Source of the DNA: a virus
Reading direction: 5' to 3' (one strand)
Length of the DNA: 62,481 nt
Virus record (IMG/VR): IMGVR_UViG_3300020185_000051
Span: 1 to 62,481 of that record
Below, in pieces: positions 3,677-56,481 of the stretch. Both the position numbers and the translations under genes were made by a program. Below the pieces are notes generated by a model. The model made no database searches. It worked only from the letters and a program-made list of their open reading frames with translations, and was not told the origin of the DNA. The stretch's first letter is position 1; each line of letters starts with the position of its first letter.

Positions 3677-3752
3677 TGGTGGAGCATAGCGGGATCGAAC
3701 CGCTGACCCCCTGCTTGCAAAGCAGGTGCTCTCCCAGCTGAGCTAATGCCCC
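3677..3752 (-). tRNA. tRNA-Ala (UGC)
   Basis: Full cloverleaf on the minus strand: acceptor GGGGCAT/ATGCTCC carrying the G3:U70 alanine identity pair, D-arm GCTC/GAGC, anticodon loop TTTGCAA (anticodon TGC), T-loop TTCGATC, and an encoded CCA end. Last of a three-tRNA cluster. Confidence 0.95.
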
Positions 3753-3761
3753 AATTAAAAT

Positions 3762-3769
3762 TATTTATC
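3762..3769 (-). promoter_or_regulatory. Late-promoter-like GATAAATAA between tRNA-Leu and tRNA-Ala
   Basis: GATAAATAA on the minus strand, 10 nt upstream of tRNA-Ala. It matches the late core and may allow late transcription of tRNA-Ala; an A+T-rich tRNA spacer could also give this by chance. Confidence 0.35.
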
Positions 3770-3807
3770 TTTTATGTGTCCTATCGTTACATAATACAAT
3801 TACTAAT

Positions 3808-3891
3808 TGGTGCGGATGGAGAGACTCGAACTCTCACGCCGTGAAGCACAAGTACCTAAAACTTGCGTGTCTACCATTCCACCACATCCGC
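3808..3891 (-). tRNA. tRNA-Leu (UAG)
   Basis: 84-nt minus-strand tRNA with a long variable arm, perfect acceptor GCGGATG/CATCCGC, anticodon stem CAAGT/ACTTG with loop TTTAGGT (anticodon TAG), T-loop TTCGAGT and an encoded CCA. Class II structure agrees with leucine. Confidence 0.94.
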
Positions 3892-3899
3892 TAAATTAA

Positions 3900-3975
3900 T
3901 GGTGCTCCTACACGGACTTGAACCGCGGACCTACTGATTACAAATCAGTTGCTCTACCAGCTGAGCTACAGGAGC
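3900..3975 (-). tRNA. tRNA-Thr (UGU)
   Basis: 76-nt minus-strand tRNA: acceptor GCTCCTG/TAGGAGC with a terminal G-U, anticodon loop TTTGTAA (anticodon TGT), T-loop TTCAAGT, CCA encoded. First tRNA of the cluster, directly downstream of an early and a late-type promoter. Confidence 0.95.
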
Positions 3976-14556: not shown

Positions 14557-14564
14557 TATTTATA
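14557..14564 (-). promoter_or_regulatory. T4-type late promoter (perfect TATAAATA) for fibre-like gene
   Basis: TATAAATA on the minus strand; it overlaps the stop codon of the upstream nuclease gene and lies 33 nt before the ATG of the 383-aa gene. Confidence 0.8.
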
Positions 14565-15252
14565 CGTTAACGCCATAAAATTGAGCAACTTTTGCTGCCC
14601 ATCCATCAGACCATTGTTTAAACTCAGCTTCTTGTACTTCAAATAATTGAAATTCTACATCACCACTACACATAAAAATAGCAATATTTTCAATCTTAGT
14701 CTCATATAATTCGTTATGTGCTAGTGCATATGCAGCACCTTGCATAAAGTAATCGTCAATCCATTCTCGCTTTTTAGGTTTATTAGTTTGCTTAAAGTCC
14801 ATAATGGTTGGCTTACCTTTGTACACTCCAACTAAATCTGTTGTTCCTGCATAAAGCTCAGGCATACAAAGCATAACTTCAGTACCCCAAATTTCATCAA
14901 TAGTAGGCTCAATATTTTTAATTACTTCGGCTGCCATTGCTTTGGCTTGTTGATGCACAATGTTATTACCAGGATTATATTCTTCATATTGCCCCAATGC
15001 CCAATGCTCTAATATATTGTGCATAACTGTTCCACGATTTGCGGCAGTTGTTGTAATACGTTGTGCTTCTTCTGTGCCAACACGTTTACGCCAGTTTTGT
15101 AAAACTTTACGTTTTTCTTCACTTTGAGTGGCGCCTAGGATTGTTGTGACACTTGGCACTGGTTCGCCCCAAGGGTTTTGATATAGACGTTTACCGTCTA
15201 CTTCTGTACGTTTTAATTCTTTATACGGGAATGGAGATTTTATGTTCAGCAT
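14560..15252 (-). CDS. PD-(D/E)XK nuclease (RecB/Cas4-like exonuclease)
   Basis: 230 aa. The core reads GTTDLVGVYKGKPTIMDFKQ (about residues 115-134): the Asp in TTDLV, then Asp in MDF and Lys in FKQ form the D...D-x-K active site. A preceding RGTVMHNILEHW helix carries the His of the RecB-type nuclease family. Likely acts on DNA ends in recombination or repair. A perfect-consensus early promoter has its -10 exactly 6 nt before the ATG, so the mRNA is predicted to be leaderless; no SD is seen. Confidence 0.82.
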   Translation of the reverse strand: MLNIKSPFPYKELKRTEVDGKRLYQNPWGEPVPSVTTILGATQSEEKRKVLQNWRKRVGTEEAQRITTTAANRGTVMHNILEHWALGQYEEYNPGNNIVHQQAKAMAAEVIKNIEPTIDEIWGTEVMLCMPELYAGTTDLVGVYKGKPTIMDFKQTNKPKKREWIDDYFMQGAAYALAHNELYETKIENIAIFMCSGDVEFQLFEVQEAEFKQWSDGWAAKVAQFYGVNV

Positions 15253-15258
15253 ATATAA

Positions 15259-15287
15259 ATTATACTATATTTAAGATAGTATGTCAA
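15259..15287 (-). promoter_or_regulatory. Sigma70 consensus promoter, -10 6 nt before ATG (leaderless)
   Basis: TTGACA (15287-15282), 17-nt spacer, TATAAT (15264-15259), then TTATAT and the ATG at 15252. Predicted +1 equals the A of the start codon. It lies inside the 3' end of the SGNH gene. Confidence 0.8.
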
Positions 15288-24051: not shown

Positions 24052-24836
24052 ATAAAGTTTTTCATTCTAGGATAAAGAACTTCATGCCACATTATTTTAT
24101 GTCCAGCTGGATTCAAATGTCCACAATCACAATAATGTTCTTCCTCAGTCATTGGGCCGCCTTGATTTGTTAATAATTTAAATCCTTGTACACCAATATC
24201 ATCCAGAAGATACTTATTCATTAAAAACCTACCTACTGCGTTTTTAGGATTGCTGGGGTCTGCTATCTCCCCAGGAGTATTAAACGTATACCACAATACT
24301 TTTTTACTATGACGCTCTAGCAAATTACACAAAGCAAGATTACTTGACCAAGTATCTATCATGTGCTGATAGCTAAACACATAATCTACAAAGTATCCTA
24401 TGTATTCTTCTTTTTTACGATCATTGGCATCCATTACATTTATTGGTTCCCAAGTTTTAAATTTTGCTTCTTTCCATTCATTGGCATCCAACCAACAATG
24501 ATATGTGTCGCTAAATGTTACAGTATCTCTATCAAATTGTACCTCAATATGACTATCAGGTCCTGGTATAGGATGGCTTACTGCCGTCTCCATACTTCTA
24601 CCTTCAACAATTGCCAGATCAAACTGCAAATCTGGATTATCCATAAAGTAACTAATAGCTACCATTAATTGTTGCTGGACTGTTACCCCTGATCTACTAA
24701 GATTTAGTACATCATAATCATGTTCTGTTTTTAAATAATCATGCCATCTGCCAGTTCGTAAAATTTCCATTTTGCCATCTGTTTCGCATGATGCTTGACT
24801 ATGACTCGTGCCTATAATTATAGCTGTCTTTTTCAT
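24048..24836 (-). CDS. SGNH-like hydrolase between primase and helicase genes
   Basis: 262 aa. Block I is IIIGTSHSQ (residues 6-14, Ser in GTSHS) and a terminal DCGHLNPAGH holds the D-x-x-H of block V; LNLSRSGVT matches the glycine block. An SGNH esterase/acyltransferase fold is likely. It overlaps the primase stop by ATGA, so it is expressed early together with replication enzymes, an odd place for a polysaccharide esterase. A role in modifying a nucleotide or lipid cannot be excluded. Confidence 0.6.
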   Translation of the reverse strand: MKKTAIIIGTSHSQASCETDGKMEILRTGRWHDYLKTEHDYDVLNLSRSGVTVQQQLMVAISYFMDNPDLQFDLAIVEGRSMETAVSHPIPGPDSHIEVQFDRDTVTFSDTYHCWLDANEWKEAKFKTWEPINVMDANDRKKEEYIGYFVDYVFSYQHMIDTWSSNLALCNLLERHSKKVLWYTFNTPGEIADPSNPKNAVGRFLMNKYLLDDIGVQGFKLLTNQGGPMTEEEHYCDCGHLNPAGHKIMWHEVLYPRMKNFI

Positions 24837-25846
24837 TTACAATACCTCTGTGTCATTAATTTTATTCGTGTAGTATTAGTTTCTACACTTTCTAATATAC
24901 TTTTTACTGTGAATAATCTTCCATATTTTTCCATAGCATCTCCTGCATCTTTACATTCGTGCCATTCAGGAAATGCAACTCCCCATCCACGTTCAATTGC
25001 TGTATTAACAGCCTTTGCTCCTGCACTATCTGCATCTGGCAATAGTACTACCCGCTTATTTAAACTATCAATAATATTAGCTTGATCATCATTTATATTA
25101 TTACTGCCAATAGCAACACCATCTGTAACAATTGCATCTAGTATACCTTCAGTAACAATTATTGTTCGCTTATCAGATGTTTGTTTATCAAGACCATAAA
25201 CGAAATTCTTAGGAGGCTGTTGATTATAATATTTAGGCATTTTATCAGGAGGTGTTCCAACCCATCTGCCAGTATAGCCAACCACACGTCCTTTATAATA
25301 AAACGGTATTACTATTCTCTTATTCATACGTGCTGGTATTTTAGATGCAGTATATAGGAATCTATTATCTTCTACATTAAATCCACGTTGATGTATATAA
25401 CTTGCTGCGGATATCCAGTCTTCATTAGTATTGGTATGTTCTGCAAACGGCAAAGTTCCTTCTGGCAGTTCAACAGTGGGCCAGTCAATAATTACTGGTT
25501 CATCACGTTTGTTTTGTTTATACAGTATTGATGCCATTTCATCTTCACGCATCAAGTCTAGAACAAGGCGATGTACATCACTCTCATCTGCACCTAAACG
25601 TAACAGTAATTTTTTTAGTTTGTAGCTAAGTTTCTTTCCAGGACTCCATCCAGTACTATATCCACAATTAAAGCAATTATACTGAAACTTATCTTCTTCA
25701 AAATGAAAGCCACCTCTCGACTTTGTATCTGGTCGACTTTCTCCGTTAACAACACACATAGGACAATTTCCACTAACCCATCCATTAGGGCTGTGTTTCC
25801 AGTTAGTTGGAATCAGAGTTTTTGCGTAATCTATTATAAGAGTCAT
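24833..25846 (-). CDS. 61: DNA primase (T4 gp61-like)
   Basis: 337 aa (T4 gp61 is 342). Zinc ribbon with CPMC (residues 29-32) and CFNC (58-61). The TOPRIM domain shows VTEGILDAI (the conserved Glu) and LLPDADSAG (D-x-D). Makes RNA primers for lagging-strand synthesis with gp41. The -10 TAGTAT lies exactly 6 nt before the ATG and no SD is present, predicting a leaderless transcript. Confidence 0.93.
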   Translation of the reverse strand: MTLIIDYAKTLIPTNWKHSPNGWVSGNCPMCVVNGESRPDTKSRGGFHFEEDKFQYNCFNCGYSTGWSPGKKLSYKLKKLLLRLGADESDVHRLVLDLMREDEMASILYKQNKRDEPVIIDWPTVELPEGTLPFAEHTNTNEDWISAASYIHQRGFNVEDNRFLYTASKIPARMNKRIVIPFYYKGRVVGYTGRWVGTPPDKMPKYYNQQPPKNFVYGLDKQTSDKRTIIVTEGILDAIVTDGVAIGSNNINDDQANIIDSLNKRVVLLPDADSAGAKAVNTAIERGWGVAFPEWHECKDAGDAMEKYGRLFTVKSILESVETNTTRIKLMTQRYCK

Positions 25847-25852
25847 ACATGT

Positions 25853-25881
25853 ATACTACACTCTTATAACTAGTTTGTCAA
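25853..25881 (-). promoter_or_regulatory. Sigma70-type promoter, -10 6 nt before primase ATG (leaderless)
   Basis: TTGACA (25881-25876), 17-nt spacer, TAGTAT (25858-25853), then ACATGT and ATG at 25846. Lies inside the end of the structural gene 26674-25856. Confidence 0.75.
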
Positions 25882-27112: not shown

Positions 27113-27674
27113 CAATTTTGTTTAACTGAACAATTATAGCCATAGCGTATGCATGTGCATGTGCTTTTTTAAAAAAATAACCTTCGTCATTGTTTGGCTT
27201 TGTCCAAACATCAGAAAGAACTACTTGCCAACTTTTTCCTAGCAAATGACGTTTTGCAGGCCTAATCACACCTAGTACCGCAGCTAGTTGGCCAATGCTC
27301 TGCGGTTTCATTCTACGTACTACTTCATAATGACTATGTATATGGAATAATTTTTTAACAATATCTTCATGCTCAAGTAATTCCCACATTACATCCATGG
27401 ATAGAAGTTCATCCATTTCAGCATTGGTTTCAATGCCATCATATACGCTAACATTTAAGATATCCATTTTAAAGAATCCAAAGCTTTCTGCTTCCTTGTG
27501 ATCAACAGTACAAAAACCATTAAATGGATTTTCTGGTACTTCATGGAAGTATACACCAGTGTTGTGCTTTTTTTGTCGATTTTTGTCATTAATCATTGCA
27601 GGTGTATTTTTAATACAATTTAGAAGTTTGTTTCTGTCTGCGGTATCAATATCAATATCTGTTGTAGTAATCAT
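27093..27674 (-). CDS. DnaE/PolC-related fragment-like protein
   Basis: 193 aa from the ATG at 27674, which overlaps the upstream stop as ATGA; an upstream in-frame ATG at 27695 is less likely. Four segments in order resemble bacterial DNA polymerase III alpha: HNTGVYFH, FFKMDILNV, SIGQLAAVLGVIRPAKRH and FFKKAHAHAYAMAI. The last recalls 'FNKSHAxAYA' of DnaE and the second 'KFDFLGL'. The polymerase catalytic Asp motif is not evident, so this looks like a reduced, non-polymerising relative. Conserved in marine T4-like phages as I recall; role in replication is inference. Confidence 0.6.
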   Translation of the reverse strand: MITTTDIDIDTADRNKLLNCIKNTPAMINDKNRQKKHNTGVYFHEVPENPFNGFCTVDHKEAESFGFFKMDILNVSVYDGIETNAEMDELLSMDVMWELLEHEDIVKKLFHIHSHYEVVRRMKPQSIGQLAAVLGVIRPAKRHLLGKSWQVVLSDVWTKPNNDEGYFFKKAHAHAYAMAIIVQLNKIVKDSFS

Positions 27675-28354
27675 CCTATAATACTTTCTACCCATGCAAA
27701 GTCTGGGGCATTGGTTTTTAATTTACGTTGCCAATATTGCGGATCAATGTAATCTACTATTAATCCAAGTTGATCACCGTTCATGCTATCTAGTAAATTT
27801 TGTGCTGTTTCGCTGGAATAAATAACCCAAGGACTAATACGTCCACTACATATATGAAATACAATTTGGTTAATATTAGCATGTTGCCAATAATCATTCC
27901 AGTTCATATTTGTTGACTCTGCCCATTCATTCATAAACATAATAGTTCGTTCTACCGCACGATCGCAACTTTCCTTCTTGAGTCGTTCTTTGTTCCAAAG
28001 ATTAAACTGTGTATCACGTGTCCAACTATCCAGCCTAACACTATTTTTTAACAACCATGTAGTGTATCCTTCAAAGTCGTCTATTTTTAAATCTATAGCA
28101 TACATACCAAACTTAACAAATGCACTGTAGTAATTACTACCAGCAAAGTCTTCATATGACTTTGGCTTTCTACTATTTGTACCAATTCGATAAAACAATT
28201 GAAAGGCACGATAACCCAAACGAACGTCTGGGTCATCTTTCTGCATATGTCTGCGTTTTTGTTCACAAGTGTGTGATGCTAGAGTTTTTTCTCTAACAAA
28301 ACTCTTGTTGCAATATTCGCACTTAAATTTAACTGGTGTAGCCATTTTTTCCAT
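27671..28354 (-). CDS. Zinc-finger protein, probably DNA-binding
   Basis: 227 aa. An N-terminal C2H2/C2HC-type finger: FKCEYCNKSFVREKTLASH, with Cys at the C-x2-C pair, one His, then a Cys (TCEQKRRH) and a further His. The rest is helical with many Trp and no known domain. The start at 28354 is predicted leaderless: TATAAT ends exactly 6 nt upstream. An alternative ATG three codons in (ATGGCT) has a weak GGA SD. Couples by ATGA to the DnaE-like gene. Confidence 0.6.
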   Translation of the reverse strand: MEKMATPVKFKCEYCNKSFVREKTLASHTCEQKRRHMQKDDPDVRLGYRAFQLFYRIGTNSRKPKSYEDFAGSNYYSAFVKFGMYAIDLKIDDFEGYTTWLLKNSVRLDSWTRDTQFNLWNKERLKKESCDRAVERTIMFMNEWAESTNMNWNDYWQHANINQIVFHICSGRISPWVIYSSETAQNLLDSMNGDQLGLIVDYIDPQYWQRKLKTNAPDFAWVESIIG

Positions 28355-28360
28355 ATATTC

Positions 28361-28389
28361 ATTATAACACTAAACAATAAATCTTGCAA
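28361..28389 (-). promoter_or_regulatory. Sigma70-type promoter, -10 6 nt before ATG (leaderless)
   Basis: TTGCAA (28389-28384), 17-nt spacer, TATAAT (28366-28361), then GAATAT and ATG at 28354. Confidence 0.7.
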
Positions 28390-29263: not shown

Positions 29264-29712
29264 TTGCGTTTTCTCTTTTTATTGTCATCAAGTTGTTCTT
29301 TCAAGTCCTTAGCTTGCTTGACAGTTAATGTGTTTAAATAGATGTTAATTTCATCGTCATTTAAATAGGGATATTTTGTAGCAACTAATTCTACCATCTT
29401 GTCGCTTTTGCCACGTTTCCCTGGGGCAATCCAAGGATGGAATTGATTGCTCCCTATACCTACTACCTGTAGTAGTTGTATTTGTAGTTCTGGATGATGA
29501 CGTAATGTGTTAAAGTGTACATTAACTAGTTCATTGGTCCATTCTAAATAATGTTCTTCGAAGTCAATAACATCATGCTTTACACTACTAGCATATCGCA
29601 TTAACATCCACGGACTTACTTTCTTCTTCTCATCAGCAGTTAGATCGTTATACCAGTTTCTGTTCTTTTTATCAATTGCTGACATTTCAGCTTTAATGCT
29701 AAGTCCACCCAT
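29260..29712 (-). CDS. 62: Clamp-loader small subunit (T4 gp62-like)
   Basis: 150 aa from the ATG at 29712, which overlaps the previous stop; an in-frame TTG lies two codons upstream. The segment AIDKKNRNWYNDLTADEKKK followed by SPWMLMRYASSV matches the conserved N-terminal block of gp62 in marine T4-like phages. The WIAPGKRGKSDK and YPYLNDDEINIY blocks follow in order. gp62 with gp44 loads the gp45 sliding clamp; neither gp44 nor gp45 is seen in this window. T4 gp62 is 187 aa. Confidence 0.75.
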   Translation of the reverse strand: MGGLSIKAEMSAIDKKNRNWYNDLTADEKKKVSPWMLMRYASSVKHDVIDFEEHYLEWTNELVNVHFNTLRHHPELQIQLLQVVGIGSNQFHPWIAPGKRGKSDKMVELVATKYPYLNDDEINIYLNTLTVKQAKDLKEQLDDNKKRKRK

Positions 29713-30212
29713 TACCAAATTTCGTTCATATCTAAAACCTCAGGTATCTTATTTGCATCTTTAACAATAATAATACACGGGCTTTCTGGCTCATCGCTTA
29801 ATGGCACACAAAGTAAGTGGCCATATTTTAGTTTAGGTGCATGCCATTTAATATCGTTATATATATTAACAATATCTACTTGCAAATACTGCGGCTGAAA
29901 TCCATTAATAGGATTCATTGCAAATGTAGTGAATCCACGATCGTTTAGGCTCATTAAACTAACTACTTCAGGATCACCTACTTCTGGATCACAAATAATA
30001 ATACTCCAATCAAGTGGTACATTCACTGTATATTTACCAATTTGTAATACCGCCGCTGGACTATAAAAACTTTCCAAAAAGATTAGTGGAATAAAGTAAT
30101 AGTCTACATTCTTTGGATTTGTGTAATCTAATACACCATATCTCAAGTCATCAATTGTTTCTGGTATTTCATCCAGTTCATATGTAGTGTTGTCTACTGT
30201 TAGGATTTTCAT
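29712..30212 (-). CDS. Hypothetical protein between uvsW and gene 62
   Basis: 166 aa, acidic, beta-rich, no recognised domain. Sequence elements VPLDWSIIICDPEVGDPEVV and FAMNPINGFQPQYL are distinctive and I associate them with marine myophage hypotheticals. ATGA overlap with uvsW upstream and TAATG with gp62 downstream show tight co-translation, so a role in replication is plausible. Confidence 0.55.
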   Translation of the reverse strand: MKILTVDNTTYELDEIPETIDDLRYGVLDYTNPKNVDYYFIPLIFLESFYSPAAVLQIGKYTVNVPLDWSIIICDPEVGDPEVVSLMSLNDRGFTTFAMNPINGFQPQYLQVDIVNIYNDIKWHAPKLKYGHLLCVPLSDEPESPCIIIVKDANKIPEVLDMNEIW

Positions 30213-31660
30213 TTGTATTTTACTTTCTCGATTGTAAACGGATAGTTTGCCTCTTTATAAAACTTTTTTCTTTCCGTTAAATGTTTTTTGCTATACTTAG
30301 CGGTACTTGTTATGTCCCAGATTTGTACAAAATCTTTATCTTCTGCTTTTCTTACTCCACGCCCAATTGACTGAATTACTCTTACAAAGGACTTGCCAGG
30401 CTCCAGTAGAACCATGTTAAAGATACGAGGAATGTTAATGCCCACGGAAGCAACTCCATAGGTCGCGATAGTAATACTATTATTTGATTCATTAATTTCA
30501 TCATACGCCTCTTTTCTGTCAGTTGTTTTCATTATACCACTTACAAACTTTGCATTTGGCAGATTCTCCAATAACATTTCTCCGCTTTTAATTCTATCTA
30601 CGAGTACTAATGTATTGCCGTCTTGTGAAATTCTTTCAAGTAATTCACTGATGTAACGTATGCGAGCTTTGTCTGTTGTTAAGTAGCTTAGTTCACTTTG
30701 GTAGTTATTATATTCCACATGTTCCATCATTTGCACAACATTAACATGACATTTACTTAAAACGTCCATATCTTGTAATGTTTTAGCCGCCAGTCGATTG
30801 ACTACTTCTCCCAAGCAAGCTTGCAAACTTACAAACTCATGTGGTGCTTTAGGAATAGTTCCTGTTAATCCCCAACGTAGCGGAATATGCGCAAAATCCT
30901 TTGTTAACATTTCTTTAAGTACATCAGCTTTTGCTTGGTGTACTTCGTCAACAATCACACATACTACATCTTCAGCAAATTCAGCTAATCCCAGTTCGCT
31001 CTCGCCTTCACGGAAACGCTTCTTAATACTGTTTAAACTTTGCCAAGTACAAATAGTATGTGTCTTGCCAATGTCTTTTTTATCTCCATAATAAACTCCA
31101 ACATCTAATCCTAAGTTTTCATAATCAGCGGCAGTTTGTCGTACTAGATCTTTATTAGGAACGATAACAATACTGCGGCCATATTCTTCTATCTTATAAC
31201 TTAATGCTGCTGTAATAAGTGTTTTACCGGCACCAGTTGCAATCTCTTGTAAGCAATGCGGCGTTTCCAAAAACTTATTTACGATCTCAATCTGATAGTC
31301 TCGCAATGTTACAGGTTGTCCTGCAACTGGGTGTTTCTCTGGCCAAACTTTATGTTGAAATGTCTCTGTTGATACTTTATCAAAATATAAATTATGATTT
31401 GTTCTCAAATCTTGAATCTCAGGAGCATATCCGTCACCAATAATAATTGGCAATACACGATCTAGTAAATTAGTATATGTAACTCCCCCTACAGTAAAAT
31501 AAGTAGCACACCCATCCCATCTGCCTAGTTTGTAGGCAGGAACATGATATGCATGGGGCATAAAAAACTTTAACTCTTTTTCGCACTTGCGCCTAGTGTC
31601 CAGATCAAGTCCTTCAATCTTGCAGTTAACTTCATCTTTTAAAATAATTTTACATGTCAT
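30209..31660 (-). CDS. uvsW: UvsW-like superfamily 2 helicase
   Basis: 483 aa (T4 UvsW 503). Walker A is ATGAGKT (about residues 140-146) and the DEVH box lies in VVCVIVDEVHQ. GLTGTIP is motif III, and QSIGRGVRK is the arginine-finger motif VI. It remodels R-loops, D-loops and stalled forks and promotes recombination-dependent replication. TATAGT ends 6 nt before the ATG and there is no SD: predicted leaderless early mRNA, unlike T4 uvsW, which is a late gene. Confidence 0.93.
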   Translation of the reverse strand: MTCKIILKDEVNCKIEGLDLDTRRKCEKELKFFMPHAYHVPAYKLGRWDGCATYFTVGGVTYTNLLDRVLPIIIGDGYAPEIQDLRTNHNLYFDKVSTETFQHKVWPEKHPVAGQPVTLRDYQIEIVNKFLETPHCLQEIATGAGKTLITAALSYKIEEYGRSIVIVPNKDLVRQTAADYENLGLDVGVYYGDKKDIGKTHTICTWQSLNSIKKRFREGESELGLAEFAEDVVCVIVDEVHQAKADVLKEMLTKDFAHIPLRWGLTGTIPKAPHEFVSLQACLGEVVNRLAAKTLQDMDVLSKCHVNVVQMMEHVEYNNYQSELSYLTTDKARIRYISELLERISQDGNTLVLVDRIKSGEMLLENLPNAKFVSGIMKTTDRKEAYDEINESNNSITIATYGVASVGINIPRIFNMVLLEPGKSFVRVIQSIGRGVRKAEDKDFVQIWDITSTAKYSKKHLTERKKFYKEANYPFTIEKVKYK

Positions 31661-31666
31661 ACTAAT

Positions 31667-31695
31667 ACTATACTTTATATAAGGGAGGGTGTCAA
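31667..31695 (-). promoter_or_regulatory. Sigma70-type promoter, -10 6 nt before uvsW ATG (leaderless)
   Basis: TTGACA (31695-31690), 17-nt spacer, TATAGT (31672-31667), then ATTAGT and ATG at 31660. Confidence 0.78.
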
Positions 31696-55805: not shown

Positions 55806-56445
55806 TGTTAATACTTTCTAATGTAAATGCAGTTGTTCCAATATGTGATATTTTATTGCTCATATCACAATCAATATATATTTTAAATCCATTTAATCTT
55901 GCTTTTTGGCAAAAATAAAGATCTTCTCCTGTTAAACTAGTATAGTCTTCATTCCATCCTACACTAAAATAAGGAAGATCCATTTTTTCAAATACAGATC
56001 GTTTGATTAACATACACCCAAATCCAACTGCTACAACTGGATGTATTCCATTTTTCTCTTCTAGTCTTGCATCCATATCTACATCGCTCGTAAATGCTAC
56101 TGGGCGATATGGTTTAACACGAGTGCTATAGTTACATGCTATAATATCTTTTTTACTTGATAATAAGGCTTCAAGTATATTTGTTGGAAACTTCATATCA
56201 CTATCTAACCATAATAAATGTGTACAATTAGTTTGTAATGCTTCAGTCGATAACGTTTGTCTTTGGCTGGCGATTTCGCTTCCCATAACCATGTGTAATG
56301 TTGTTTTTAAACCAGCCTCGCCGCACTTTTTCATAAGCATAGCAAGACTGAATGAAAACGCGGCTGTTACCACATCACGCACAGGAACGCAAATAGCAAC
56401 TGTTGCATTAGTTTCCTTGGTATAATATTTTGGCATTGATACCAT
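55798..56445 (-). CDS. Glycosyltransferase family 2-like protein
   Basis: 215 aa. GT-A features: AICVPVRDVVTAAF at the N-terminus, THLLWLDSDMKFP (D-x-D metal site, about residues 76-88), and VAVGFGCMLIKRSVFEKM, as in GT2-type proteins. The downstream GEDLYFCQKA acidic-aromatic block fits. Predicted leaderless start at 56445: TATAAT ends exactly 6 nt upstream, no SD. Probably acts with the following gene. Confidence 0.7.
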   Translation of the reverse strand: MVSMPKYYTKETNATVAICVPVRDVVTAAFSFSLAMLMKKCGEAGLKTTLHMVMGSEIASQRQTLSTEALQTNCTHLLWLDSDMKFPTNILEALLSSKKDIIACNYSTRVKPYRPVAFTSDVDMDARLEEKNGIHPVVAVGFGCMLIKRSVFEKMDLPYFSVGWNEDYTSLTGEDLYFCQKARLNGFKIYIDCDMSNKISHIGTTAFTLESINND

Positions 56446-56451
56446 TTTTAA

Positions 56452-56481
56452 ATTATATTAGTCCGCTAATTCTGAGCTCAA
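56452..56481 (-). promoter_or_regulatory. Sigma70-type promoter, -10 6 nt before ATG (leaderless)
   Basis: TTGAGC (56481-56476), 18-nt spacer, TATAAT (56457-56452), then TTAAAA and ATG at 56445. The -35 is weaker than in the other four. Confidence 0.6.

Follow-up and report, generated by a model that had tools for sequence, protein, structure and literature searches.

Recurrent, predicted leaderless starts at replication genes of T4-related jumbo phages

Most discussion of leaderless messages concerns archaea and mycobacteria, along with a small number of phage repressors. In Sinorhizobium meliloti, 171 leaderless transcription starts have been mapped, all of them starting with AUG (PMC3616915), and the cI mRNA of lambda is named as a model leaderless mRNA (PMC9031893). 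Kasugamycin stops translation led by a Shine-Dalgarno sequence and spares leaderless translation (PMC5230787). The study of AR9 describes phage transcripts as often leaderless, AR9's own leaders being 26-491 nt long (PMC5312081). Here we report that, in jumbo phages related to T4, a sigma70-type promoter very probably starts at the A of the ATG of the exonuclease, primase and UvsW genes, whose transcripts would be leaderless, as judged from sequence and its conservation.

Like the leaderless mRNAs of S. meliloti, the predicted transcripts start at the A of AUG, have no Shine-Dalgarno (SD) sequence and use AUG only; those, however, come from host genes with mapped 5' ends, whereas ours belong to phage replication genes and are predicted from sequence and conservation. 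The likeness to lambda cI lies in a phage gene that would be translated from a 5'-terminal AUG, but cI encodes the repressor of a temperate phage, and the genes considered here are a conserved replication and recombination set in a T4-related lineage. Leaderless mRNA is already known from bacteria and lambda cI; for T4-related jumbo phages, the literature searched described no conserved leaderless set of replication genes, nor any leaderless gene set in jumbo or T4-like phages, which does not prove that there is none.

The window, that is, the whole stretch of DNA analysed, is a complete IMG/VR virus record of 62,481 bases. It encodes terminase, UvsX, UvsY, a gp32-like single-stranded DNA-binding protein (SSB), a gp41-like helicase, a gp61-like primase, UvsW and ribonucleotide reductase, and three consecutive tRNA genes (Ala, Leu, Thr) lie on its minus strand at 3677-3975. 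The best cultured matches to UvsW are T4-related jumbo phages, led by Sinorhizobium phage Phosso (56%) and PA5oct (52%) and followed by 121Q, CBB and similar phages. Close relatives are present in IMG/VR (for example L007, with a UvsW 93% identical), and a near-identity search with the record matched no cultured phage. A search for the host among genome contigs led only to metagenome bins whose assignment is doubtful. This phage group's UvsW and primase also occur on two contigs binned as a Neomarinimicrobiota metagenome genome (G006:C57 and C77; PBPT01000016.1 and PBPT01000082.1; 335 kb and 153 kb), which appear to be jumbo-phage DNA and both of which carry the same region.

A preliminary description of this DNA had singled out five genes in which a -10 hexamer ends exactly 6 nt 5' of the ATG. 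This spacing and the lack of an SD were confirmed for all five, which lie on the minus strand and whose ATGs open reading frames of 215-483 aa (Table 1). The accompanying statement that a -35 lies 17-18 nt further up held well for the nuclease, primase and uvsW, where TTGACA stands at exactly 17 nt, and poorly for the zinc-finger gene, with TTGCAA at 17 nt and a TGn extended -10, and for a GT-like gene, where TTGAGC lies 18 nt away. When the two strands of the window were scanned strictly, the search pattern (TTGACA with at most one mismatch, N16..18, TANNNT, a start codon 5-7 nt on and a reading frame of at least 50 aa) returned exactly three sites, those of uvsW, primase and nuclease, all at distance 6.

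Table 1. Positions in the window of the promoter-like boxes and of the genes predicted, or possibly, to be leaderless
Feature	Position	Strand	Remarks
-35 box TTGACA, nuclease promoter	15282..15287	(-)	kept in relatives
-10 box TATAAT, nuclease	15259..15264	(-)	ends 6 nt before ATG 15252
PD-(D/E)XK exonuclease gene, predicted leaderless	14560..15252	(-)	phrog_298 exonuclease, E 2.9e-56; expected +1 = A at 15252
-35 box TTGACA, primase promoter	25876..25881	(-)	within 3' end of upstream ORF
-10 box TAGTAT, primase	25853..25858	(-)	TAG = stop codon of upstream ORF; ends 6 nt before ATG 25846
DNA primase (T4 gp61-like), predicted leaderless	24833..25846	(-)	phrog_47 DNA primase, E 4.4e-34
-35 box TTGACA, uvsW promoter	31690..31695	(-)	
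-10 box TATAGT, uvsW	31667..31672	(-)	ends 6 nt before ATG 31660
UvsW-like DNA helicase, predicted leaderless	30209..31660	(-)	phrog_16 DNA helicase, E 8.3e-74
-10 box TATAAT of zinc-finger gene, TGn preceding	28361..28366	(-)	ends 6 nt before ATG 28354
Weak -35 TTGCAA, zinc-finger gene	28384-28389	(-)	
Zinc-finger (C2H2-like) protein gene, possibly leaderless	27671..28354	(-)	phrog_11058; zf-C2H2 below Pfam cut-off
TATAAT before GT-like gene	56452..56457	(-)	6 nt before ATG 56445; just past stop codon of upstream gene

The A+T content of this genome is 64%, and TATAAT-like words are frequent near ATG in such DNA, so that chance could produce the arrangement. As a general account we consider this extremely improbable. 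Promoters at distance 6 (TANNNT with a -35 matching in at least 4/6 positions) precede 4 of the 73 window genes, whereas 2000 shuffles averaged 0.12 and never exceeded 3; the primase is missing from the window count since its TAGTAT fails the filter used there. The earlier argument that chance is improbable is upheld for the nuclease, primase and uvsW, for which conservation across phages excludes it. It does not extend to the GT-like gene at 56445, which we rejected as a fifth case: its -35 is weak, and no relative but the closest retains the TATAAT, there at a distance of 5 nt and lacking a -35, with positional information near background. We judge this TATAAT to be a chance match from the pattern in relatives. 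Seven further TATAAT/TATAGT-N6-ATG matches in the window, none of which opens a likely gene, also fit chance.

Across 2882 deduplicated upstream regions from 291 loci and the window, promoters that have the two boxes, with no more than one mismatch in either, lie 6 nt before the start in 79 cases, a non-random sample because most loci were fetched for carrying these genes, and at 5 and 7 nt in 8 and 6 cases. Elsewhere up to 25 nt there are on average about 1.8 promoters per distance, and a second, broad hump at 26-38 nt corresponds to ordinary leaders. These leadered sigma70-type promoters of the same phages (gp41, the AAA protein and others) share the -35, the -10 and their spacing with the leaderless set and belong to neighbouring genes, but their -10 mostly lies in that more distant range, and 90/147 (61%) of their genes have an SD against 0/93 of the leaderless set, an absence partly forced because the -10 occupies positions -12 to -7. 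Leadered early promoters of relatives can also carry a palindrome of the GTAAGAC-TCTTAC type in the -35/-10 spacer (L003 1960; L004 1232/2091/2513; L006 3278; G002:C1 133633-138958), which resembles the operator of a phage regulator; it occurs in 18/110 leadered and 0/83 leaderless promoters, and was not found at the window promoters.

The start codon is ATG in 92/93 of the leaderless set, and the 17-nt spacer recurs in 71/78 of its promoters at distance 6. A pyrimidine occupies -1 in 88% of the leaderless set, compared with 43% of starts that have no promoter (p 4e-16). This fits the usual initiator, a pyrimidine at -1 followed by a purine at +1, and gives independent, if indirect, evidence that the A of the ATG is +1. 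The arrangement might instead reflect compact packing, in which promoters serve the operon, the -10 is squeezed between genes with its TA also forming the upstream stop codon, and longer mRNAs are translated through coupling or re-initiation. Packing is in keeping with the primase, whose -10 holds the upstream stop codon and whose stop-to-ATG gap is fixed among relatives; overlap with the end of the upstream coding sequence also accounts for part of the conservation of the primase -35. It predicts, however, a spread of distances rather than the observed concentration at 6 nt, and it leaves both the -1 pyrimidine and the ATG-only starts unexplained. Additionally, the exonuclease keeps its 6 nt constant although relatives differ in the gene that lies upstream and in where that gene stops. 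We therefore hold packing to be improbable and favour a start at the A of the ATG.

Because the loci are biased towards these genes, a less biased pattern scan of IMG/VR was added. Among the matches listed, TTGACA-N17-TATAAT-N6-ATG fell on gene starts in 47/124 cases, compared with 13/116 for a control pattern with N12. The N6-ATG genes among the matches listed included uvsW, four primases, this exonuclease and four 5'-3' exonucleases, as well as UvsY, thymidylate synthase and a clamp loader. Six genomes, whole or large, together contain 15 promoters at distance 6 where about 2.4 were expected, a small peak, and the strict filter gives about 1-5 leaderless genes per genome. The suggestion of a translation class for early genes was thus too broad as worded: a small set is predicted, and most promoters of the same type have a leader, usually with an SD. 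Whether leaderless genes differ in function from leadered genes with the same promoter was also considered, and an enrichment was dismissed, both sets being rich in replication and nucleotide-metabolism genes; among the families listed, primase alone stands out (4/52 leaderless, none leadered).

The leaderless promoters have the features of host sigma70 promoters, namely TTGACA, a spacer of 16-18 nt and a TATAAT-like -10. As the genes sit in a T4-related replication module, phage middle or late promoters (T4 MotA-box or TATAAATA type) with a start elsewhere might be envisaged in place of host sigma70. This appears most improbable, since the three solid promoters combine a full TTGACA and 17 nt spacing with TATAAT, TAGTAT or TATAGT, not TATAAATA, at -10, and no MotA-like TGCTT at -30 was seen on reading the sequence. 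The combination that marks a T4 late promoter, TATAAATA at -10 with no -35, is absent from the window promoters.

Comparison of the spacing between -10 and start in orthologues, anchored on the start codon in deduplicated relatives, bore out the exonuclease, primase and uvsW, the zinc-finger gene only locally, and the GT-like gene not at all. The exonuclease has a promoter 5-7 nt before the start in 41/45 orthologues, 39 of them at exactly 6, and at no other tested distance in these 45 relatives; the primase has one in 45/58 (40 at exactly 6), and uvsW in 20/97 (14 at 6, 5 at 5). For the three genes, promoters at other distances are few or none. A neighbouring family (window 29712-30212) has the promoter in 12/91 members, all at 6, and lacks it in the window's own copy.

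In 31 exonuclease upstream regions less than 80% alike, information amounts to 0.95 bit per position in the -35 and 0.72 in the -10, and to 0.22 in the spacer and 0.31 in the N6 before the ATG. Length is thus kept while the intervening bases drift, as selection on the start point predicts. Most relatives offer no alternative in-frame start for the exonuclease, and the L115 protein, 87% identical, is encoded without such a promoter. The uvsW promoter lies at 6 nt in L001 and L003-L007 and at 5 nt in L002, with diverged spacers, and the start itself is kept, homology beginning at residue 1-3. Leaderless uvsW is confined to the near clade of the window and scattered others; in most of the distant relatives the gene has no such promoter and starts within or adjoining the preceding gene.

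Taken together, exact conserved spacing, the lack of an SD, ATG-only starts and the -1 pyrimidine strongly support a leaderless start for the nuclease, primase and uvsW. For the zinc-finger gene, whose TGnTATAAT-N6-ATG is kept only in its two closest relatives (L093 and L206), a leaderless start is plausible and would be a local feature; the GT-like gene drops out of the proposed five, as only its closest relative shares the -10. The leaderless class turns over among relatives, with primase, exonuclease and UvsW as its recurring members. On protein trees, changes of the leaderless state are few: two for the exonuclease, three for the primase and seven for uvsW (tree of 97).

Among cultured phages, the Pseudomonas phage PA5oct carries TTGACA-N17-TATAAT at two of these genes, 7 nt before the exonuclease ATG at 158242 and, in the primase, 6 nt before a GTG at 145890. 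It differs in that its primase would begin with GTG, a poor leaderless start. The annotated primase start (MK797984, 145884) immediately follows the -10 box; should this promoter be active, translation would probably begin instead at the GTG, 6 nt beyond the annotated start. The leaderless arrangement was not found in the tested orthologues of 121Q, RaK2, CBB, Vibrio 2.275.O, Phosso and Atu_ph07, and in enterobacterial jumbo phages the exonuclease has an SD leader.

We infer the transcription start, early timing and translation of these genes, early expression being deduced from promoter type and gene function. Host RNA polymerase with a housekeeping sigma70-type factor would recognise the consensus TTGACA-N17-TANNNT and begin each transcript on the A of the ATG itself. 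The mRNAs of the exonuclease, primase and UvsW, and perhaps of the zinc-finger gene, would begin 5'-AUG with neither leader nor SD, and the ribosome would load directly onto this terminal AUG. The three proteins are likely to be made solely from their own promoters, in modest amounts, because in read-through mRNA their reading frames would have no ribosome-binding site; the bulk proteins (gp32-like SSB, UvsX and gp41 helicase) would retain leaders, mostly with an SD. Tentatively, the three proteins may be needed less than SSB, UvsX and gp41, and since a reading frame without SD might be poorly read from longer transcripts, the leaderless promoter may couple translation to the gene's own early transcript.

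A further-reaching reading, which we think unlikely, is that T4-related jumbo phages have long maintained the arrangement under selection as a means of regulation, whereby primase, exonuclease and UvsW could be translated solely from the early transcript of each gene, while a phage initiation factor would later disfavour leaderless mRNAs. Genes for IF3 adjoin those for ribosomal protein bS21 in two relatives of the window, G001 (a large one, 221 kb; G001:C1 154940-155428) and G004 (G004:C1 81506-81980), and bS21 is also encoded by PA5oct and SCTP-2. Such pairs may matter because IF3 is reported to inhibit leaderless translation (PMC9031893). CBB, an enterobacterial phage with IF3, has an exonuclease that is not leaderless, and thus the link between IF3 and leaderless genes stays conjecture. 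A nuclease of the T4 RegB kind cuts SD sequences (PMC3014915), and a lack of SDs might serve to escape it; a search of 11 records for RegB (PF10715) gave no match, the positive control being likewise unmatched.

Start-codon annotation may benefit from these findings, as programs that depend on an SD can misplace leaderless starts, and phage PA5oct offers a cultured test case. Recurrent leaderless replication genes, gained and lost repeatedly, would provide natural examples for when and why leaders are dropped.
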